64,000 nt of DNA from Apostichopus japonicus (taxonomy: Eukaryota; Echinodermata; Holothuroidea; Aspidochirotida; Stichopodidae), in NCBI RefSeq assembly GCF_037975245.1, contig NC_092563.1, positions 29,103,960-29,167,959 of the forward strand, read 5' to 3'. The translations under genes and the position numbers were made by a program. The notes below the pieces were generated by a model. The model was not told where the DNA came from and did no database searches. It saw nothing but the letters and a program-made list of their open reading frames with translations. Each line of letters opens with the position of its first letter. Within the stretch, counting starts at the first letter, position 1. Shown here in pieces: positions 12,501-56,010 of the stretch.

Positions 12501-15500
12501 TGCCATGTTATTATCTGAATTGTAACTGAGACCTTTTATTTTGATAATTGTCATAATTAAATTAAACCTGTATTTCTTTGTGATAACAACACAATGTACG
12601 TTGTGTCATTGTTTTTCTCATTCCTTTATTTTAGATATGATACAAGAAACAAGAGTGATATTGGAAAACCGGCCTGAAACATATCAAAATGAATTCCTTT
12701 TGCTTCAGAGTGAGCTCATGAAATCAAAGCAACTGGAAGGTATGTCTGTTGTGTTTGGATTTCATGAACCTTAGTGGGGTTTATTATATTGTGCGTGGGG
12801 ATTTCATGAACCTTAGTGGGGTTTATTATATTGTGTATGGGGATTTCATGAACCTTAGTGGGGTTTATTATATTGTGTATGGGGATTTCATGAACCTTAG
12901 TGGGGTTTATTATATTGTGTATGGGGATTTCATGAACCTTAGTGGGGTTTATTATATTGTGTATGGGGATTTCATGAACCTTAGTGGGGTTTATTATATT
13001 GTGTATGGGGATTTCATGAACCTTAGTGGAGTTTATTATTATATTGTGTATGGGGATTTCATGAACCTAAGTGGGATGCTTGATATTGTGTATGGGGATT
13101 TCATTAACCTTAGTGGGGTGTTGATATTGAGTATGGGGATTTTATGAACCTTAGTGGGGTGTTTGATATTGTGAATGGGGATTTCATTTAGCCTAGTGGG
13201 ATGCTTGATATTGTGTATGGGGATTTTATGAACCTTGGGGTGTATGATATTGTGTTTGGGGGAATATGACACAAAAGAGTCACAGTAAAAAAGTCAAAGA
13301 AAAAGATCCAATGGGCTTGGTAACTTTTGTAACTTAAAGTACTTTTATACAATGATAAAATTGTCTTCACATGTATAACATCAGTTATGAAAATGACCTA
13401 GATTTTAACCCTTGTATTTCTTCAATGTTACTATCTTGCTCTCTTGGAAGAACAGTTTAGAGAGGAAGAAACCTTACTACTGAAAGGGGGGGGGGTGTCA
13501 ATAAATAAAACAATATTATAGCTACATGATTGACATACCAAGATTTATGGTTAAAGTGACTTTCGATAGAAGACTTACATGTTTTCAGTGTCTAAGCATT
13601 TCATGTTACATATTTGAAGTTTATGTTGTCTAAGGGAAGTGCAATAGCATAAATGATTTTACTTAAAATGAAATATCTTGTTCAACTATCAAGGTTGTCA
13701 AGTATTTTTTTTTTTTTTAAATGTCACACATATGATTCACAACCCACAAGATGACTTACGATGAATCCAATCCCTCCCTTGGAACATTCTGGTCTCCTTT
13801 AGAATCATTACCTAAAAAGTACTTCATCATTGCAGAATATATTGGCAGTCCATCAGCATGTCCAGTCTTAGCAGTGCTGCTTCTAGTTCTCCAAAAGAAC
13901 GATAAGGACAGTTGTAGGAAAGTTTGTCGTAAACTGATAAAGAAATGCGAACTCAAGCAGGAGCCCTCGTCAGACTCTAAAAGGTATTTGGGAAAAAAAT
14001 AAGGTAATTGTTGAAATCTCATCAAATTTGAAATGAAAGAATGTTAAGTCTTCCTTTTGAGTCTTCAACTTTCGAAGCAACAACTTCATATGCATCCTAT
14101 TCCATGCTCAGTCAAATTTTTTTTTTCCTAGAGGCATGAAATTCTTTGCTTAATTGATCCTGAGAAATTAATCATATTGTTATCATTCTATTTGTGAATA
14201 TATCCCAGTGTTGTGCTGATGCTCAATATGTCAAGTCACTATAAAGCAACTGTCTGTTTTTGCTCAACAATTTGACCATAAAACCTAATCGGTTGGTTTG
14301 GTAAACTTGATAACCCCCCCCCCCAATAAAAAAAAAAAAAAAAAAAATTGAACAAATTGAGACATTTGAACAGACTGTCTTTTCCTCTCATATAAGCTTA
14401 CGACTATTACATAATTAACAATTGTTTTTTTGGGAGGGGAGGAGGGGGTGGGGGTTCAATGAAAATCATGTGATATCTTTATTGTATTTATCTTTATTTC
14501 TTGTTTTCTCTCACATTCTAGGACTCTACCAGATGCGGTGGTCAACCCTATATCAAGTCATTTAATTGAAACAATCATCGAAGTAGCAAGTGATGACATT
14601 CTGAAAGACCTGACAGAGACATGCTTTAATGGCCTACTTCTCAAACTCGCTAAAACTCCTGTGGCAAACTTTATACTTCAGCGACTCATTGCAAAAACAG
14701 TTCAGTCTGAATCTGTAAGTTTATATATGCGAATCAGTTTAAGCGATAATTGAAAGGGACTGACCATGTTTGGTTATTTTTTTTATGCGATACATGTAAG
14801 GTCCCATTATTACATACTGAGGCAGTTACAGAAAAAAAAAAATTCAAAGCTGGAATAAAAGAAGTGTTTTGCAGCCAGTCAATTTATGTGAAAGTACTTC
14901 CATATGATTGTTCTACAGGAATTAGTTCATTGGTAGTCGCCAAAGTTGGTCAAAGGTACTTGTGAGGACTATTGCAGATTGTTTAATCAATTTAAGTTCA
15001 TAGTCTGATGGTCCTTTTGCAGGTCTTTCCATGAAATTCAATCTGTTTCTTACTGCAGTTAATATACTCAGTGACATGACCATAGCGATATATGAAAGAA
15101 GAAAAAACTGTGGCTCAACAAAGGAAATGTGATGTCATAGGTCATAGGTTAAACCATTTTAATTGATATTTACCTCTGAATCACTATCAGTTCTATTTTT
15201 TCTTGTTTGTAGATGGACCAGATTATGACAGAACTTACGAAAGGATTCCATAAGATCTTAGCAGCCAATAACACGGGGGTGCTTCTACAGTTAGCAGAAA
15301 CTTGCTTCTTATTCCCTGCACATCAAGGTAACTGTTTCTTCATCAAATGTAATGATTTACTTTTCATTTGCACACTTTTGTCATTTCATGTGCAGTTTAA
15401 TAGCATCCTTCCTGGGGGAATTGTTCACACTACTTTTGTATTGGTTTTTGGATTTAATTGTCTTATTAATGATGACATTTTCAAAGCCCCAATGTCACTT

Positions 15501-17888: not shown

Positions 17889-18410
17889 AAAGAAATGTGG
17901 ATAGAAAGAATGCTTTCAGAGAGAGATACATGATGGAAGAACTTGTCGTGTGAGCACACCAAGATGGAGGAATGCCGGAATAATAGAGGAAAGCCACCAG
18001 TTTAATAGCTGGTTGCCTACCTTAGGTCACAGGTGCTGAGAGAGCCAGGTCGGGTTTCCATGACAACTATTCACTTGGCCTCATTTTTTACCACCTTACT
18101 TGCCCTTAAGTATATTATGAAAATTCTGGTCCCCAAATTGAGCCTGTGCCCGAGGGCTGTACCTTACTTATTTCCTTTGTGATGACAGTGTATCCAGTCA
18201 AAGAATTGAATTTAGCTTGAAAGGTAAATTGTGTGTTAGGAAAGAGAAATTGTTTTTACTAGCCAAAAAGTCTCTGCTTATGTATCTTTGGTAACGTGGC
18301 ACTTGTGAAATAAACCATGCAGTGTATTACCACTGAAGGAAGACCTTCCAGCCAAATGGTGGGATGGAATCGCAGTGTTGACACTTCTATTCTCTAATCC
18401 AATACGACGG
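17889..18410 (+). other. NOP9 3' UTR and flank with poly(A) signal
   Basis: Non-coding sequence following the NOP9 stop. The first canonical AATAAA is at 18309-18314, about 420 bp after the stop, and is a sensible 3' end. A second AATAAA lies at about 19257; if it is used, the 67/70-bp satellite becomes part of the 3' UTR. Confidence 0.6.
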
Positions 18411-19170
18411 ATACAGTTTGCCATGCTAAAGCTACATTATTGTTTGGCATTATCTGCTATCTGATGGTAGCTATCTTAAAATACAGTTTGCCATGCTAAA
18501 GCTACATTAATGTGTGGAATTTGCTACCTGATGGTAGCTATCTTAAGATACAGTTTGCCATGCTAAAGCTACATTTATGTTTGGCATTATCTGCTATCTG
18601 ATGGTAGCCATCTTAAGATACAGTTTGCCATGCTAAAGCTACATTATTGTTAGGCATTATCTGCTATCTGATGGTAGCTATCTTAAGATACAGTTTGCCA
18701 TACTAAAGCTACATTTATGTTTGGCATTATCTGCTATCTGATGGTAGCTATCTTAAGATACAGTTTGCCATGCTAAAGCTACATTAATGTGTGGAATTTG
18801 CTACCTGATGGTAGCTATCTTAAGAGACAGTTTGCCATGCTACAGTTACATTATTGTGTGGAATCTGCTATCTGATGGTAGCTATCTTAAGAGACAGTTT
18901 GCCATGCTACAGTTACATTATTGTGTGGAATCTGCTATCTGATGGTAGCTATCTTAAGATACAGTTTGCCATGCTAAAGCTACATTATTGTTTGGTGTTA
19001 TCTGCTATCTGATGGTAGCTATCTTAAGATACAGTTTGCCATGCTAAAGCTACATTTATGTTTGGCATTATCTGCTATCTGATGGTAGCTATCTTAAAAT
19101 ACAGTTTTCCATGCTACAGCTACATTATTGTGTATCATTATCTACTATCTGATGGTAGCTATCATAAGCA
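18411..19170. repeat. Satellite of 67- and 70-bp units, 11 copies
   Basis: Units start with A(T/G)ACAGTTTGCCATGCTA at 18411, 18481, 18548, 18618, 18688, 18758, 18825, 18892, 18959, 19029 and 19099. The spacings 70-67-70-70-70-67-67-67-70-70 show two length forms: 70-bp units contain TTTGGCATTATCTGCTATC, 67-bp units contain TGTGGAAT(T/C)TGCTA(C/T)C. Each unit ends in CTGATGGTAGCTATCTTAAG, a stretch rich in short palindromes (TAGCTA, CTTAAG). The array sits between the two NOP9 poly(A) signals. Confidence 0.95.
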
Positions 19171-23200: not shown

Positions 23201-24921
23201 GGACAACCATTAAAAATTTGCCTTGTTAACTTAGAAGGAAGTAGATTGGACTTGATGGTTGGTCCATCAGCCTGAATAAGTCATGGAACCAGGGGTGGGC
23301 TGAAGATGATTTGGGCCCTCTGGCTACAAAGGGTCTTCAGACCACCTCCACCAGCACCCTAGCCAGCAGTAAGAAGTGAATAGCCCACTTCCGAGCACAA
23401 CCTCTCTTACATAGGAAAGGTCCAAACTATTCATACAATTCATACGCAAGCATATTGAATATCAACTTTGATAAGAAATTTATGGAAGCTAATGGGTACA
23501 ACCCTATTGCTCTTCGCCGAGGGCCACGGTTGGCCGACCGGGCCACCACTACATGTAGAATGCCATTTGTCTTAATTTTGCGTATCATGTCCTCACTTAC
23601 CTAATTGTGTCATATGTCACATGACGACCTACTGTGACCCGTCTTGGACCTTCTGGCAACTGATCTGCCCAGGGAGGTTTTACCCAAACAAAGTGACTGA
23701 TGTGACCGGCATACACTGCAGGAATAATCCAGTTCTCAATACTCAAGTGTCTGCAACGGAACCAACACTCAAATATGCAACAAATATTTCTCTTGGTAAT
23801 CACTGTGAAATATTGTAACATCAATAACCATCTGGTCAATTCACTCAATTGTAAGGAAATAGAACTTTAAACAACACTATTTACAGATTGAAATAGCAAG
23901 CTTCAACACTACATACAAAAAAATAAATGAATTTCGTTGCTACAATTTGAATTTAACCAATAACAATTATAATTATAAGCAGTGTATAAGTGGGAGCAGG
24001 AGTTCCCTATGGCATTTAAGTATAATTTAGTATACTTTAAGTAATTTTTGTATACTGTAACTGTTTTGCATGACATAGAATGAGAAATTTATTAGTAGAT
24101 ACATACTTGCTCAGCTCTGTTAAATTAAAGACATCTTTTGCAGGAATCTTTGAAGGTATCTGGAGATCTGGATGAGAGTCTAAATGGACCATACTGATGT
24201 TTTCAAATGGTAAATGGCGAGTAGCAATGGCCCGGTAGATATGCTTCAGTACCTGCACATATAAGCAATGTGAAACTGTTTGGATCTTGTGGTTGGTAGA
24301 AACAAACTTATTGTATTTCAACATTCCTACTCCCTAAAGAAATGTTACTGTTACAGGGGCCCTAAATAATTTCCTCTAGCTTTCTTCTGCTGAAGCATAC
24401 ATGTAGTTCACCATCAATCGAGTTCCTGATGAGGAACCTACTTAATGTACCCTAGGCCTATGTTAGATGCAATCACCCAGGTTATTAATGAACTGAGTGC
24501 CTTGGCAAATGTAATGGACTAGCCATGAAATGAGTGTGAATACACCAAGGCTGCATCTGTGGGCAGATTGGTCAATGAAAAGACCATTATTAGTAATAAT
24601 AACATGTTTTGTCGTTTAGGCATGAACCACCAGCATTGTTTTTTGTTGTTGTAAAAACAATCGGCGCTTCCAACGTATGCTACACAATATGGGTTGGATT
24701 CTTGTGGGGAAAACGTCGCGAATACGGTTCCAATGCAAATTAAAGCTGACAAAACATGGGAAGATGGAGTAGCTATTTAAATTTGTGCTAATACGATTAA
24801 AAACGATCATACATACTCATACAACGCATTTTGACTTAATTACCTCCTGATGATCCTCAACAATAATGACAGGTAGCTTGGAGTAAACTCTCTGCTTCTT
24901 CACACGACTGTGGAGTTCCAT
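20270..24921 (-). CDS. C5orf22: UPF0489 family protein, C5orf22 homologue (7 exons, complete)
   Basis: Exons on the minus strand: 24921-24844, 24252-24107, 23750-23601, 22730-22244, 21735-21551, 21330-21115, 20420-20270. All junctions are GT/AG, phases agree, and the joined frame is 470 codons plus stop, close to vertebrate C5orf22. Diagnostic blocks: IIVEDHQEV (about 19-27), [21 protein letters not shown] (47-56), [35 protein letters not shown] (267-276), [11 protein letters not shown] and [12 protein letters not shown] near the C-terminus. The aspartate/histidine blocks HLDSHPD and DIDLDFF are the family hallmark and resemble metal-site motifs of arginase/deacetylase-like folds; biochemical function is not established. 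The part between about 150 and 260 is charged and low-complexity, poorly conserved in the family. Start chosen at 24921 because the preceding in-frame Met (24999) adds residues without family similarity; 24999 remains possible. Confidence 0.93.
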
Positions 24922-25139: not shown

Positions 25140-28100
25140 ATGTTCAACCAAATGCCAGAAGTCCATGTTTGTTCAAGGGTAGGCTATATTCCTAAACTGC
25201 CTATCGTTAACGTTAGACTTAATCTTTAAACCATCCAAAAGGTAGACTATAGCATAGGCTAGGCCTAAACTGCAGCCTAGGCCCTAGATGGCATGGAGAC
25301 GTTCATAACGTACACAGTATTATCTGTTTTTGTATTGGCATGTGCAGCATATGTTGGGTGGTCATGGGTACCTGTGGGTGTAGGCTTAGGCCCACTCGAA
25401 ATTAAAGTGAACTGAACACAGTACTGGCAGTAGCCTAACTTCTCTAAGATAACCTATGTTAGGCGTTGGCTAACATAACAAGTAACATGTGATCATGTAG
25501 CCTAGGTGCTCCAGGTCAATTTATTATTGTCACATCCATTTAAGTGTTTGAACTAGAGTAGAATTCCTGTATGGGGCACTATACTCCTAGCCCAAGTGTA
25601 CCTTCCTCAATGAAAGGTTTTTCACTGACAAATGTGCTCTTGTCACATTCACAGTCACCATGGGCATACCACCGGTACTGTAGCTAAGCCATTTTGAGGG
25701 GCTGATCCATAAGATGCACCATGACTTTGACAAAGCAGAACCCTTCTGACAGTGTTATATACTGAAAAGATAATAACTTTACTGTCTACCAACATTTTCC
25801 CCCTCCCCTTGCCCCCCCATTGCTCATCCCTAACATCGTTTGTGGCAGGATTGATGTGAAGGTGCAGATATGATACATACAAACATGTTTAACTGTTGAT
25901 TTAAAGTTTTTCTGTAACTGTAAAAAAAAAAATCATAGTCTCTGTGACAATGGCATTACTTCCTTGGTATGTAAACATTTTTTAGGGTTTAGAATCTTCA
26001 GGAAAGCACTCTAGGGACTTGACTTTTTGTATCCTAAAATTATCATGCTTATTCAGATATAGTACTGATACTGTAAATTTTAGCTCTTCATTCTCCCAGA
26101 AGTTTTGTTCAAGAACATTAACAGAAAGTTTCCTTCTTTTCTGCAATGTTTATTACAAATAGTTGACAGATGAAAATGAACAGTTGATCAGAAAGTTGAG
26201 AAAGCTGAAGAAGAAGAACAATGTATTGGAAGAAGAACTGAGGGATATTAATGAAAAGTTAAAATTTGAAGAATTTGTCAAGCATCACACGTTGACAATC
26301 AGGTACAACAATGTTATCTTCTCTTCTCTCGCATATAACATTTAACAGTATTTAGAATCATTGTTTTAAATCCAGCTGTTAGAATAATAGTAATTAGAAG
26401 CATACCTTATTGATGTCAGTTACAACCAAGTGTTCACTCATTTCCATGATAAAACTTGACAGAACTACTGAAGAATTAAAAGAATTCAGAAATGACATAA
26501 CAACGTATATATGTACCTGTTAGTTTTATGTTGGCTCATCACATTGTCAAAGTTGAGTAGATGGTAATTTCTGTGCAATATTGAGAGTAGTATTGATCCA
26601 TATAATTAAATTGTCACCAATGCTGTTTTGTGTCACTTCTCATTTTAGTATTTACACTTGTTCTGTTAAACTGTCATTTGGAATCGAATGTAATGAATTT
26701 GTGTAAGCATGCTAATGTAGTAGCATCAACCTTAGCAGGGATGTAACAATGTATAAATCCCCACCCCCCCCCATACAAAAAATGGGGATTGGCGAGGGCG
26801 GCCCACTATTATTCTGACAGACAATACCAAAAATTCTTAGTGTATTGTACATAAACATGTAACTGTCAAAAATGATTCAATATTGTTTCAAATGTATAAC
26901 ACCTTTCTGTATATAATTACCCTCAATTTTACCAGAATTCCTCAAAGGGGGGGGGGGGGGACACCCCTCCACTCAGACTTATCATTGAAGCCTCCCGCCT
27001 GCCTTTCCCTTGTACACAAAGACTTTAATTATTTATAAATATTGAGAAGCAAAGCACAGTGCAAAGAAAAATATGATCGAATTGCACCTTTAGAATAACT
27101 CAAGAATTGATAGTATAAGATTAAACAGTTCCAAATAAGTTGAGTAAAATGTGCCATCTGTGAAATTTTGAAAACTGTCTTGTCTGTTAAATATCTGTCA
27201 ATAAATACATGTCCTTTAACCAATAACATTCAATCCCTACAGACCCAATTTCTGGACAGTGCTCAACAAGAGTTACCATAGATTATGCCAAGCATTATTT
27301 TAGTTGTTAGGTGTTTCTACATCCTGATAGTTTGTTAATGGAAATTTTAAGAACAGGCTCTGTGGGATGTTCCGAGATGTTGATTGGAAAGTGCTTTGAA
27401 TTGGATGAAAATCAGGATTTGAAGTTCCTTTGGGAATAGACTGCCATATTCTCTAGACAAAATTGGTTAAGTAATGTTGATGATGAATTAAGACATATTT
27501 TCTAATTTCCTGCAGTGTATGCACCCAGACTGATTTACCAGGATACAAACCACTTGTGATTAAATCCAAACAAGTCAGCAAACAACAAAAGCACACAGAT
27601 GAGCAAAAGAAGCAGATTGACAGGTAAAAGCCTCTCTGGATAGATGTGGGTGAGATGATTAAAGAGGGGGTGGGTGTGGGGGGGGGGGGGGGAAGAGGTA
27701 CCAGAGGGAGGTTGGATGGGCAGAGTTGTGCAGTGCTATGGAATTCAGGATAATTGCATTAAGAAACTAAAATAAGGTGACCAGACATTCCCAATATTCG
27801 AGGACAGTCCACAGATATCACGCCCTGTTCCAGGATGAAAAGTGTTCCCGGAAATGTACCTGTCATTTATTACTGTCCTGAGAATATCCTTGAATTTGAA
27901 AATCGGCCCTGAATAATTTTAATTTCACCTGTTGGGCCTTCCGTTCTCAAAAGCAACTTCAATGTAAACATCCATTGTTTACAATTACATTCACAACTCA
28001 CAGATAAAAGGCATCTCAGGTCACTGAATAATTTCATTGGCTGTCTTTCACATGGAAAATCTCTTTTGAACTTAGTAATATATAAGGAGACTGCTGGTTC

Positions 28101-30894
28101 TTTCGGTATTGTTCTTTTAATGTATTTTGGGCCTGATACACACTTGAGCGTTTGAACAGAATCTTTGAAACATAGCCAAAACACCCAGAGGTCCTCAAAC
28201 TTTAGCTCAAAACCCTTGTTGTGAAAATGAAAGATTGGGGGGGGGGGGGGGAGAGATCACCATCAACAGCATGTCCCTGTATGTATTGGAAAAATTATTG
28301 TCGCCCTCAACTGAATGCAATATTAATATAACCTAAAGTTGTTGTATTGAGTCATATTCCTACGGAAGCGTAGAAGGGACATTGCATTGACGAGTTACCA
28401 ACTTGACAAAACGACAATTATCTGCAAATTGACGAGTTGACGAGATGGTAACGTGACAAAATTCAGAAAATTGACGTTTTGACGAGATAACGGATCTCGT
28501 CAATGCATCAATTTTCTGCAAATTGACGAGTTGCACACTTACTACCATCTCGACAAGCTGACAAAATTCAGAAAATTGTCGTTTTGACGAGATATCGCAT
28601 CTCGTCAATGCATCAATTTTCTGCAAATTGACGAGTTGCACACTTACAACCATCTCGACAAGATGACAAAATTCAGAAAATTGACGTTTTGACGAGATAA
28701 CGGATCTCGTCAAAACGTCAATTTTCTGAATTTTGTCATCTTGTCGAGATGGTTGTAAGTGTGCAACTCGTCAATTTGCAGAAAATTGATGCATTGACGA
28801 GATCCGTTATCTCGTCAAAACGTCAATTTTCTGAATTTTGTCAGGTTACCATCTCGTCAACTCGTCAATTTGCAGATAATTGTCGTTTTGTCAAGTTGGT
28901 AACTCGTCAATGCAATGTCCCTTCTACGCTTCCGTATATTCCAGCAATTTTAAACATTGTAAAATTTATGATCACTTTTGTTTGATATATGCATGAATTT
29001 TCTTTCTCCCCGTAATGCATTTTTTGTCACCAGCTTGCTTAAAATGCACAAAAACCTGATGAAGAAATATCAAAAGGAGTTAAAGCACAATGCCAAACAC
29101 CTTGAAACGATAGCAGGTTTGAATGTAAGTATATCAGGCCTAGAATTTTACACTATTAGCCATGTGCCAATACATGCCAGTGCTTAACAGAATCTATTAG
29201 GTAAAATCAAGTTCTCACCTCGCATTTTACTGGATTACAGCACATATCAGTTACAGTACAGGCTTATGAGAGCAGCCCAATATTAGCTGATAGTAATTGA
29301 GAAGGAAAAACACACACACTTGCCATACCTCATATCAGTACAGCTGTAAGACTTGTTTCTCTTTGTGGTTTGAAACCGAAATTTCTCTAATATTAATTAC
29401 CAAATATTCAGCTATGTTCTTCTCACCTGTTTTCAACACAAGTTAAGAGTGCAAGAGCTTGAGACTCAACTGACCAACTCAAAGCAGAAAGTTGATTATT
29501 TAGAAAGAAATCGTCCTCTGACCACTCCATCCTCCTCTCAGAGGAAGATGAGGAGGACACCAAGAACTCAACGAAGGAGGAGAACTTCATCGACTCAAGA
29601 TGACGCTGAAGGTAAAGCAACCTAGTTACTACGGCTACAAAACACGGATTCTAACGTTTCCTCCCCGTTTTTCAATGACATTTTGCAGATGTAACTGAAG
29701 AAGGGTGAATTTTTTGGGAAATAATTTGTGCTGAAAGTATTTATGTAGTTTTGAGGTTTATGAAGACTGCTTTCCACAAAATGGTTAGTCCTGTGTACAA
29801 AACCTAAAATACATATTTGTCTTTGTGTGATTTTGTGTTGCTATGGGATACCAGTTAAGTTATTCCCTTTTAGTGGTGTTCAGGTGGTGATAAGGGCATG
29901 TTGTGAGAGTAACTTTTGCCTTTCATCTAATGGAGATTTTTTTCTTTTAGTAGGGTGGGGGGGGGGAGTGTGGAGGTGTCTTGCTGTAAGCTTTTTAATT
30001 TTAGCCAGTTTAGTTTAAAATTCATGGACCAAATCTGGCACCATTTTTGTTTTGTCCTCTTCACACCAGATTCTAGTAAATGTATTGTGGCTAGCTGAAC
30101 TAGTAATTTATAGTAAATATATACAATGACAAAATAGTTCAAATAATGGTGTCATTCATTACAAAGGGAAAATAAGGTTTGAAACATTTATACTTTAGAT
30201 CTGAGGTCAGAGGTGAACCAACTACGACAAGAAAAAGAAAGGTTAGCCAAGGACAGAAAATTACTGAAGAAAGAACTTGGAGCTTTAGATGACGTAAGTT
30301 GAATTCAGCCTGCAATGCAAGCAACGTTAGAAGTGTTTTTTCCTTTTGTGCTATACACTAAATAACTAGTGCATTTTGCATCATACTTTTATGGTTGTTA
30401 CATATTGCTTGTCATTCACTACTTCAAATACTGAGGTTCTATGAACAAGAAATACTGTTTGGCTGGTTTGCATAACACACTTCATTATCCCTGCTGCTTG
30501 TCTACATATGTCATTCACATTTGAAGCTTACGGTAAAACTCTACAGTATAATATTTCATAAATCTTCAGGTGTGTCGCAGGCATTTAAGGTAAATACTTT
30601 GAACAACACATTAGTTATCATTAGCTGAATTGATGGCATGGGTACTGCCTTCCAATCCCCCCACCTCCCCACCCCCCATCTTGAATATGACATTTTATAT
30701 GTATCTCTCATATTTTTCCTTCTTTGGAGAAGGATTTCTTTGAAGAGCTCGAAGACTTGAAGTTTGCTCTTCAGCAGTCGGCGAAACTCAATAAGGAATA
30801 TCAAAGGACTCTGGAGAAACTCTCTCAACGGTTTGGATTTCCGCTGCCGGATATTAAAGCCCAACACTCTGAAAGGAGAAGCAGCAAGAGGTAG
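25140..30894 (+). CDS. Short coiled-coil protein with CEP290-like C-terminus (7 exons)
   Basis: Exons: 25140-25178 (first, least certain), 26163-26302, 27516-27623, 29034-29124, 29443-29611, 30199-30293, 30733-30894. Phases agree; the joined frame is 267 codons plus stop. Exon 2 onward is charged heptad-like coiled coil (LTDENEQLIRKLRKLKKK..., SLLKMHKNLMKKYQKELKH, LRVQELETQLTNSKQK), interrupted by a Ser/Thr/Arg-rich linker (RPLTTPSSSQRKMRRTPRTQ, about 150-180). The last exons read LKKELGALDD then FFEELEDLKF...LEKLSQRFGF, closely resembling the extreme C-terminus of CEP290 (SALDPSFFEEIEDLKY...KLSEQLG, recalled). Full CEP290 is about ten times longer; here the upstream neighbour is a complete divergent gene 218 bp away, so a long N-terminal part is unlikely to be attached. 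It may be an independent paralogue or a split gene. CEP290 acts at the ciliary transition zone and centrosome; that role for this protein is inference. Confidence 0.75.
28354..28942. mobile_element. 575-bp palindromic fold-back/MITE with ATATTCC duplication
   Basis: Element 28361-28935 begins TACGGAAGCGTAGAAGGGAC and ends in the reverse complement GTCCCTTCTACGCTTCCGT; directly outside both ends is ATATTCC (28354-28360 and 28936-28942), a 7-bp target-site duplication. The two halves are near-perfect inverted repeats centred near 28703 (GACGAGAT AACGG ATCTCGTC). The left half holds one additional 106-bp unit (starts at 28493 and 28599), so the arms differ in length. The words TTGACGAG and CTCGTCAA recur throughout. 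No transposase; non-autonomous. It lies in the intron 27624-29033 of the CEP290-tail-like gene, and its open frames on both strands are by-products. Confidence 0.93.
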
Positions 30895-32739
30895 CATTGA
30901 ACTTGGCCAAATTTCCGGCGACCTAATTGTCATTGGACAATTTGTGACACACTATTTATCAAGAACCGGAGGACGAATACCATTAATGTTTCATCGTCTT
31001 TATTATATGGAAAATTGAATGACAGACATTGACAAATTTATTAAGATGCCAGAGTTATTCCTCACTGCCCATCTAAATGATGTGTTCCTAAATATAAATA
31101 TGGTTGTTATTACTATTTTTTTATATATTTTTTTTATTGCCAGGTAAACCCTTTGTTGATGGTCTAAACTTTGTGCTCAGAAAATGTTCTTCAAATTTTT
31201 GCTTTCCTTTTTACAAATTTCCTGTTTTCTCAGTAAAATATGGTATATTTGGAAATTTTGCTTTGTCATCACTCTTCTCGAGACTTCCACAGATTCATAT
31301 ATCATCTACCAATAACTTGTACTTTGGAGAAATAACTTATACTTTGTAAGGAAAGGGAAGACATTTTCACCTCATCAAATTCTAAAAATAAATTTATATC
31401 TTTGCTCCGTCTCTAAAGAAGCATCTGTTTAAGAAAAAGAAAAAATCCCTTTTCATGAATCGTGTATTGCATTGGTATGTCAGCATGGTTGCTTAGCATC
31501 GTTATCATGTGTATGATGTTCAGTATTCCCACCAATTTACATAGTGCTAAACATTACTAGATGCTCTGAGATTGGTAAAAGTATAATATGGAAGCAAAAC
31601 TGTTTGATGAAGCTTGAACGTGAGTGACCATTATTTGACCTTCTAGCATATTCTGGAACATTTGCTGATGTTATATAATCTCAATATTGCTCAATTACCA
31701 GCATATTAGCCCAAAAAGGAAAAAAAAACATATTCTTATCCTAGCCTTCATCCTTTTTTGGTCCAAAAATAGAGAAGAAAAAAAAACCTCCACCTTCCTT
31801 GTTTGACAAAGTTCAGACAAGAAACATATTTTTTTTTTGCACATGGCCTTACATGTATGACTGTGGTATATAAAATTATTACCCACAACACTAAACTTGT
31901 TCAACAAATGGTTGAAAGTAACTGTAACTTATCAATTATTTGCTTAATAATTATTTACTAGCTTTAACTAATCATTTTGTAAAACTGATTTTTATTTTCC
32001 CGATATATGAAGTATTGCTGTGTAGATGTGTGTGTCAGTATGGGATAACTTCAGGATAAGAATATATTACTTTGAGTGTTTTTCATCTATTTATTTCTTT
32101 TTCTCAAGTTTTCACTATAAAAATATGAAATCTTTTCATCTCTGTATCTACCGAGTATCGCCAAAATCCATTCATTATTTGCCATATTTTGACATATCTT
32201 TCAAATGTGCACAAATTCACATACCCATCGCCCAAATATGGTTATGGGCATGTGATTGTAATATTGTTATGTTTTACCATATTATATATTTATTGTTAGC
32301 TACTGTATTATCTGAAGTGATATTTTTATAATAAATAATAAAGAAATCAGACTTTCACCGATATTTTTTTCTTTATATAGCAAAAGTATGCCTCTTTCAA
32401 TATCAATAAACGTTCAGTAAAAGAGGATAAGTTAAATACATGGGATCAAAAGAAAATTAAAATTCCATATCTTTTATCTGTCATAATTTCTTTCAGCATG
32501 AATTCTGCGTCAGGTTATTGCTATGTAGGTGTTCTTTCTTGAACAAGAGTGCTGTAACACCATGAAATCCTTCCGTTATTTTATGTGCAAAAATGTTTCC
32601 ACATTAATAAAGCTCCCAGTAGCTTTATGGTGGGAGCTACTCTTTGATATTAAATTTGAGTTAACAGAGTGGTAATGTTATACAAATATGGCTTGTGTGT
32701 GTGAGCGGTAAGCATACAACCAAAATAACATGGGAAATT
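30895..32739. other. 3' UTR/flank of the CEP290-tail-like gene, no other gene
   Basis: AT-rich non-coding sequence. AATAAA signals occur near 31386 and in the cluster near 32331-32342; the true 3' end is unknown. A partial palindrome (AGCTCCCA 32611-32618 with TGGGAGCT 32631-32638) resembles the CAGGGAG hairpins seen elsewhere. Confidence 0.5.
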
Positions 32740-35148: not shown

Positions 35149-37320
35149 AAGGAAAAAGCAGGTGAGTGCTACAAAAGGGACAGATTACTCAAGCCCTATT
35201 CACAATAGGGTGAAAGAGTGGGATGAGGTGAGGTGAGGGTGAAGGATCAGAATGAATGAATGGGATCAGTTGTGGGGAGTCTGAAGTGGTGGGATTAGTT
35301 AGGGAGAGGGAAAAGAGATGGAATGAGTCGTGTGGAGTTGTAAAGGGCGTTCAGATATCATGTTGGTGACTGAAAGGTTATCTGATGTCCACATTTTAGC
35401 GACAACCACATATATGTGTTTGCCACTTTCCCTTCACTGAACCACCCCTCATGCTTCTTTGTTCATACTTGTATCGGAAGCAGGACACTTCGCCCAACTG
35501 CCATTTCGCCCAACCTTACCATTTCTCCCAACCAGCCTGGTCATTTCGCCCAACCAGCCTGGTCATTTCGCCCAACCAGCCTGGTCATTTCGCCCAACCA
35601 GCCTGGTCATTTCGCCCAACCAGCCTGGTCATTTCGCCCAACCAGTCTGGTCATTTCGCCCAACCTTGTTTAAATATGATATTTCAAAAGGAAACGTTCG
35701 GGAATTGTTAACGTTACAGGATACGAACCGAATATTAAGGAAACTTGAGGATTGATCAGTGTGTTAGGGGTTAGGTTTGATAGTAAACGTTCGAATATTA
35801 AGGAATATTAAGGAAACTTGAAGTCCTTTACTTTGTATAACTTTAGTAAGGAAACGTTCGGGAATTTTTAACGTTACAGGATACGAACCGAATATTAAGG
35901 AATCTTGAGGATGGATCAGTGTTTTAGGGGTTAGGTTTGATAGGTTTGATATAGTAAACGTTCGGGAATTGTTAACGTTACGGGATACGAACCGAGTATT
36001 AAGGAAACTTGAAGTCGTGGTTAAATTGATTACATATGTGATTACATATGTGGTTACATTGATAAAGTGGTTACATTGATTAAATATAGTAATTCAATAT
36101 TACGGACGGGTTTTATATTTATTTTTTTTTCAATTTAATAAGGAAACGTTCGGGAATTGTTAGTCAGTAGAATGGATCAGTGTTTTAGGGGTTAGGTTTG
36201 ATAGGTTTTATGAAGACCGATTCCCCTGTGTTTGTATAATAATATAACTTCCATTGTATGCGTAAACGCCTAAAGTAGTGTAATCCTCCCATTATACCCG
36301 AAATAACTGCTCAGACTCCGATCGATATCGAGCGGACCTCACTTTTTTTATTTACCTATTACAAAGTAACCTAACCCAAAATAAATCAAATTGAACTAGT
36401 GGAATAGAAAAAGTAATATTATTCTGACTGAATATTAGTGAAAATAAGGTTGGGCGAAATGACCAACACAGTTGGGCGAAATGACCATGCTGGTTGGGCG
36501 AAATGACTATGATGGTTGGGCGAAATGACCATGCTGGTTGGGCGAAATGACCTGGCTGGTTGGGCGAAATGACCAGGCTGGTTGGGCGAAATGGCAGTTG
36601 GGCGAAATGGTTGTTGGGCGAAGTGACTAGAAAGCCTTGTATCATCTTTCTTCTCAATCTTGATTCAATACAAGAATTACAGAAATCAAAGTAATTATTT
36701 GTGTATAGTTTGAAAGATTCCATAAACAGGATAACATTAAACCGGAGTGACCATTGTATGACTCTCTGGCGTATCTGAGGACAATAATTGCTGATGTCTC
36801 ATAGGTGCTAGTCAGTATTGAAATGGTATGTTGCATGAACAATAATAAGCACTTGCCTGCTGCCTAATACAGTTATACTTGAGTTAACAGTATAGTACTG
36901 TAGGTAGACTTGTTTGGATACAGAATAACAGTAAAAAAGTCAAAACATAAATTTAGTATAAATGAAACCTTTTCTGTATTGAAAGAAGCTATTAATAACT
37001 CGCTTTATATAAGTATCCAGTTATTGTTTATGGATTGGTAATGGTTATTGTGCAATGTTTCTCCGCCAATGCAACAGTGCATTGGTCTTCTGGTACTCAT
37101 TTACATACTAGCCTTCCTCAATTGTTTCTTTTTACAGGTCGTAAATCTTTCTTTGGAAACCACACCACAACCAGCTTCTGAGATGGCAGGTTTCTGGCTG
37201 GAAGAATCTGCGGGGAAATGTTCGGTGGAGCGGCAGTACTGACAGAAATTAATTAATAAGTAAATCTCACCGCCACAAAAGATGGGAAAACAAGATAGGG
37301 TATTAAATTTGTAGCAATGC
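35149..37320 (+). other. DAD1 3' UTR with an apparent intron (35162-37137)
   Basis: Thirteen bases after the DAD1 stop is a strong donor, AAAGCAG|GTGAGTG (exon end 35161). A strong acceptor TTTCTTTTTACAG|GTC ends at 37137, followed by about 170 bp and an ATTAAA signal at 37302-37307. Splicing would remove the 1.16-kb fold-back element. Because the stop is 13 nt before the junction, the arrangement would not be expected to trigger nonsense-mediated decay. The splice is inferred only. Confidence 0.5.
35468..36643. mobile_element. 1.16-kb fold-back element with 22-bp repeat arms (TU-like)
   Basis: Left arm 35486-35665 is a tandem array of 22-bp units (CAACCAGCCTGGTCATTTCGCC); right arm 36447-36625 carries the same unit in inverted orientation. 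Both arms end outward in CACTTCGCCCAAC. Exactly 10 bp beyond each arm tip lies CTTGTATC (35468-35475 and 36636-36643), consistent with an 8-bp target-site duplication and terminal 10 bp that differ between ends. The core (35670-36440) contains diverged direct repeats of a GAAACGTTCGGGAATTGTTA block (near 35691, 35850, 35955, 36143) and GGGGTTAGGTTTGATAG. Inverted arms made of short tandem repeats with an 8-bp duplication are the design of sea-urchin TU fold-back elements. No transposase. Confidence 0.88.
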
Positions 37321-55454: not shown

Positions 55455-56010
55455 ATATACCTCAGGTGTAAAACCTTAAGGAAATGATAAGCATAAAACC
55501 TTAAAGGCAATGAAGGGTATAAAATCCTTAAGGAAATGATAAGTATAAAACCTTAAAGGAAATGATAAGTATAAAACCTTACAGGAAATGATAAGTATAA
55601 CACCTGAAAGGAAACGATAAGTATAAAACCTTAAAGGAAATGTTAAGTTTTAAACCTTAAAGAAAATAATAAGCACAATACATTAAAGGAAATGATAAGT
55701 ATAAAACCTTAAAGGAAATGACAATTTTAATACCTTAAAGGAAATGATAAAGTATGAAACCTTAAAGGAAATGATTATTATAAAACCTTAAGGAAATGAT
55801 AAGTTTAAAATCTTAAAGGATATGATAAGTATGAAACCTTAAGGAAAGGATAAGCATAATACATTAAAGAAACTGATAAGTATAAAACCTTAAAGGAAAT
55901 GTTAAGTTTTAATCCTTAAAGGAAATAATAAGTATAAAACCTTAAAGGAAATAATAAGTATAAAACCTTACAGGAAATGATAAGTATAAAACCTTAAATG
56001 ATATGATAAG
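55455..56010. repeat. 26-bp minisatellite, about 20 units
   Basis: Unit consensus CCTTAAAGGAAATGATAAGTATAAAA, 26 bp, in about 20 copies with frequent point changes and one-base indels (ATAAGTTT, ACAGG, AAGGAAAG variants). No spacers, so not CRISPR. Every unit contains close matches to purine-rich AT sequence; stop codons TAA/TGA recur in all frames. Confidence 0.93.

Follow-up and report, generated by a model that had tools for sequence, protein, structure and literature searches.

The seven exons at positions 25140-30894 (+) of the 64-kb window, that is, of the whole stretch of DNA analysed here, stand about an even chance of forming a free-standing gene for a small coiled-coil protein that has only its C-terminal 50-80 residues in common with CEP290. 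On this reading, the gene is a tail-sharing paralogue or a member of a small family, rather than the detached end of CEP290. The evidence for the shared tail is given first, followed by the structure of the gene, the alternative origins and a possible role for the protein.

Similarity of the last exons to the CEP290 C-terminus

In all sequence comparisons, human CEP290 was represented by an approximate sequence, which contains at least one error and is one residue too long. It agrees with the published Leu2448 and Thr2457 (PMC3048164). PMC6023944 gives a human coding length of 7,440 nt; the protein has 2479 aa. When exons 6-7 (85 aa) were compared to the end of this sequence, the Smith-Waterman score was 127, and 21 of 49 residues were identical in an ungapped alignment. 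This score was reached by none of 2000 plain shuffles (mean 39, maximum 70) and by none of 2000 heptad-preserving shuffles (mean 44, maximum 77). The tail also exceeds other coiled-coil stretches of CEP290. Windows of 105 residues were taken along the approximate CEP290 sequence in steps of 35. Of these 68 windows, the one at the tail scored 115, whereas the 66 windows starting before residue 2300 had a mean of 41 and a maximum of 58 (one tail-overlapping window was omitted).

The carrier of the tail signal is exon 7, which alone scored 77 against the approximate CEP290 tail, with 0/2000 heptad shuffles as high, whereas exon 6 alone scored 51, with 109/2000 as high. The best match of exon 7 among the 52 coding exons compared (exon 8 was omitted as too short) was human CEP290 exon 54. 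The distance from the FF pair to the C-terminus is 52 residues, compared to 60 in CEP290. Counting against the match, BLASTP of exons 6-7 was only marginal (33.9 bits, E 0.067, with composition correction and a 10-Mb database), and tblastn against the window reached no better than E 0.029. When the approximate CEP290 sequence was searched against the window by tblastn, exon 7 was nevertheless the sole hit at E≤10. The initial annotation had matched the last exons to the very end of CEP290, and this claim is borne out by the shuffles, by the other CEP290 windows and by the exon 54 match, all relative to the approximate human sequence.

Exon structure and coding signal

The seven exons join to 804 nt, corresponding to 267 codons and a stop, and all introns are GT-AG with fitting phases, such that the frame is kept throughout. 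A codon score trained on 882 codons from neighbouring genes was used to compare each exon with stop-free stretches of equal length from non-coding DNA at 44.7-64 kb. The coding score is clear for four exons: exon 2 (26163..26302, coiled coil 1) exceeded all 368 null stretches; exon 3 (27516..27623, a likely disordered linker with SVCTQTD and the start of coiled coil 2) exceeded all 680; exon 6 (30199..30293, the start of coiled coil 3) exceeded all 858; and exon 7 (30733..30894, the CEP290-like tail, FFEELEDLKF...LEKLSQRFGFPLP, and the stop codon) exceeded all 251. Scores were weak for exon 4 (29034..29124, coiled coil 2), which 2.6% of 902 null stretches equalled and for which another frame, interrupted by stops, scored higher, and for exon 5 (29443..29611, the end of coiled coil 2 and an arginine-rich linker), which 2.9% of 210 null stretches equalled and for which other frames, also with stops, scored higher. 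Part of the coding signal may come from the amino-acid bias of coiled coils.

The proposed first coding exon (exon 1, 25140..25178, +; 13 aa, MFNQMPEVHVCSR) is an unproven, by-eye choice among ATG-donor pairs, and another ATG lies within it at 25152. A coding signal is lacking, as 40% of 2494 stop-free non-coding stretches reach the score of this exon, and ATG-donor candidates equal to it occur in 42% of 45 overlapping 1241-bp gene-poor stretches. Exon 2 is without an in-frame ATG and is immediately preceded by a stop codon, so the protein must begin either in some exon further upstream or at the first Met of exon 4. Thus, of the seven-exon, 267-aa gene originally proposed, the coordinates, in-frame joining and GT-AG borders hold, whereas exon 1 is a candidate at chance level. 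Two overlapping AATAAA signals at 32330..32342 (+) mark a putative transcript end, and further AATAAA signals are present at 31387, 32405 and beyond. Against the preferred reading, no X-box near the start is better than those found elsewhere: the best matches 8 of 12 positions, and 111 of 169 other window intervals reach at least 9.

Neighbouring genes and repeats

The start codon of a divergent UPF0489 gene lies at 24919..24921 (-), 218 bp upstream of the proposed ATG at 25140, as had been annotated; its product, read from a by-eye join of open stretches, matches PF12640 (E 9.7e-52). We take this neighbour to be C5orf22-like. Overall, pieces of the neighbouring genes match NOP9 (+), UPF0489 (-) and DAD1 (+); a protein kinase gene and an exostosin-type gene lie further out, and the neighbours tested belong to families other than that of the CEP290-tail-like protein.

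Intron 3 contains a 576-bp near-palindrome (28361-28936) with 270-nt arms that are 94% complementary and with the ends TACGGAAGCG/CGCTTCCGTA. A TATTCC hexamer adjoins each end (28355-28360 and 28937-28942). The element resembles a transposon of the fold-back or MITE type whose insertion duplicated a 6-bp target; a 32-base sequence from its ends has no other copy in the window. Tandem repeats are present in other parts of the window: 12 copies of a 42-bp repeat in the NOP9 region (12757-13261); 11 copies of a 70-bp repeat, with 91% matches, in the stretch that separates NOP9 from UPF0489 (18410-19168); two arrays of 22-bp units (35520-35665 and 36448-36593), 6.6 copies each, in opposite orientation and less than 1 kb apart, whose units were judged alike by eye; and about 21 copies of a 26-bp repeat in gene-poor DNA (55469-56010).

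Alternative origins

One alternative is that CEP290 was split in this lineage, its last exons having become a gene of their own and its N-terminal part being located elsewhere. In its favour, exons 2-7 can be aligned in order, with the tail fixed, to roughly 275 residues at the CEP290 C-terminus, at a Smith-Waterman score of 173 compared to 127 for the tail alone. However, that score was reached by 60/1000 heptad shuffles, by 37/1000 plain shuffles and by 17/99 chimeras with other CEP290 stretches, and, when exon orders were compared, the native one came 4th of 24, its score tied with the 3rd, such that 3/23 other orders were equal or higher. Under four other scoring schemes, 8-126 of 400 shuffles and 3-23 of 50 chimeras were as high. 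Exons 2-5 alone scored 72 against CEP290 residues of about 2200-2386, with 29/1000 heptad shuffles as high. Judged from these alignments, there appears to be no clear colinearity with CEP290 upstream of the tail, or at most a faint one. The introns were compared to those of human CEP290 in PMC6023944 (Table 1). The last four phases (2, 0, 1, 0) fit human introns 49|50, 50|51, 52|53 and 53|54 if 51|52 is skipped, and exon 5 (169 nt, border phases 0 and 1) is as long as human exons 51+52 together (74+95) and agrees with them in its border phases. In contrast, exon 5 has no sequence likeness to human exons 51-52 (973/1000 shuffles as high) and exon 4 does not align with human exon 50 (480/1000 as high), and this common length and phase pattern was rejected as support for a split because the sequences do not align. 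Additionally, the last two introns are 15 and 10 codons away from the human ones in the ungapped tail alignment, with equal phases and with human as the one species compared, and intron 2|3 has phase 2 where human 48|49 has phase 0. A split is thus rather unlikely. The initial annotation had offered a split CEP290, a truncated paralogue or a small family sharing the tail; the tail likeness stands, but the split is not favoured, given the lack of clear colinearity upstream and the differing intron positions.

In another, unlikely reading, these exons form the 3' part of a longer gene that continues upstream past or around UPF0489, or lies partly outside the window; the unsupported exon 1 and the lack of an in-frame ATG in exon 2 are in line with it. 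A strict scan of the + strand over the entire 64 kb yielded four coil-rich stretches. Three are exons 2, 6 and 7, and the fourth, at 13.9 kb, falls in the region read as NOP9 (the NOP9 match was checked for the 11.4-kb piece only). Exons 3, 4 and 5 were overlooked, so the scan catches about half of such exons; coil exons upstream are less likely in its light. The tblastn search with CEP290, in which exon 7 was the only hit, also argues against a longer gene, although diverged short exons could escape it. It is improbable that the tail likeness is due to chance or to coiled-coil convergence, with the protein being a member of some unrelated coiled-coil family, ciliary or not. Consistent with such an origin are the marginal BLASTP E value and the Pfam results, in which the weak hits listed for the 267-aa protein were all below curated cut-offs, as were those of the approximate human CEP290 tail among 25 families listed of 50. 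Similarly, searches of PDB by sequence gave weak hits and no convincing relative, the best being the trypanosome mitoribosome factor mt-LAF19 (E 0.0017, residues 47-121), and exon 2 stands out against human CEP290 exon 41 (z 6.4 on 60 shuffles). In contrast, the tail score lies far above those of heptad shuffles and of the 66 coiled-coil windows from CEP290 itself, and the tail match is ungapped and C-terminal in both proteins. A tblastn search at E 1e-3 of viral contigs and prokaryote genomes, where no animal genes are expected, found no relatives. Literature searches on FFEEIEDLK and on CEP290 in sea cucumber gave no match, and a stand-alone tail gene was not noticed in the accessible parts of the matches listed for CEP290 in sea urchin and Strongylocentrotus, or for its orthologs, paralogs and evolution.

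Predicted protein and possible role

The predicted product is an elongated, basic coiled-coil protein of about 32 kDa with a pI of 9.8. A single-sequence AlphaFold model (pLDDT 70, pTM 0.37) places helices at residues 16-54, 81-148 and 176-248, separated by low-confidence linkers at 54-84, where pLDDT is below 50, and at 154-172. The second linker is arginine-rich, with 10 K/R in residues 149-175.

A free-standing protein with a CEP290-like tail would probably act at the ciliary base, competing for or joining the C-terminal partners of CEP290. Its coils may dimerise the protein, a step that LC8, the dynein light chain, would assist at a TQT site; the tail would then dock where the CEP290 C-terminus docks, and the docked protein could extend CEP290 there or compete with it. 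In PMC10914257, a C-terminal fragment of fly Cep290 is located near the axoneme in dependence on Cep131 and Cep162, and mammalian CEP290 C-terminal fragments are cited there as binding themselves or the N-terminus. A broader and rather unlikely proposal is that the gene belongs to a family, so far without a name, of short proteins of the cilium. In these, the CEP290 tail would serve as a docking module that can be moved between proteins; dimerised with the help of LC8, they would tune CEP290 by occupying the sites of its C-terminal partners. If this is a natural stand-alone tail protein, then the tail is shown to work as a module, and the protein is a ready tool for finding the binding partners of the tail. 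If it instead reflects a true split, then CEP290 is able to work as two chains.

Comparison with LC8 clients and CEP290

Clients of LC8/DYNLL carry a motif of the form [D/S]-K-X-[T/V/I]-Q-[T/V]-[D/E] in a disordered segment, often with flanking coiled coils (PMC3078936). The first linker here holds a candidate LC8-type motif, SVCTQTD, in a low-confidence segment between two predicted helices; the residue at -3 is V, where K/R is preferred. The pattern [ST]..TQT[DE], chosen after the sequence was seen, occurs in 0.165% of 20000 shuffles, and TQT alone in 7.4% of 20000.

In comparison to the CEP290 C-terminus (human residues of about 2387-2479), the protein has the same KKEL...D..FFEE.EDLK and, later, KLS...G..L, located at the C-terminus in both. 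In contrast, it comprises 267 aa where human CEP290 comprises 2479, its intron positions differ as aligned, and the rest of its sequence has no clear match to CEP290 beyond the coiled-coil background.
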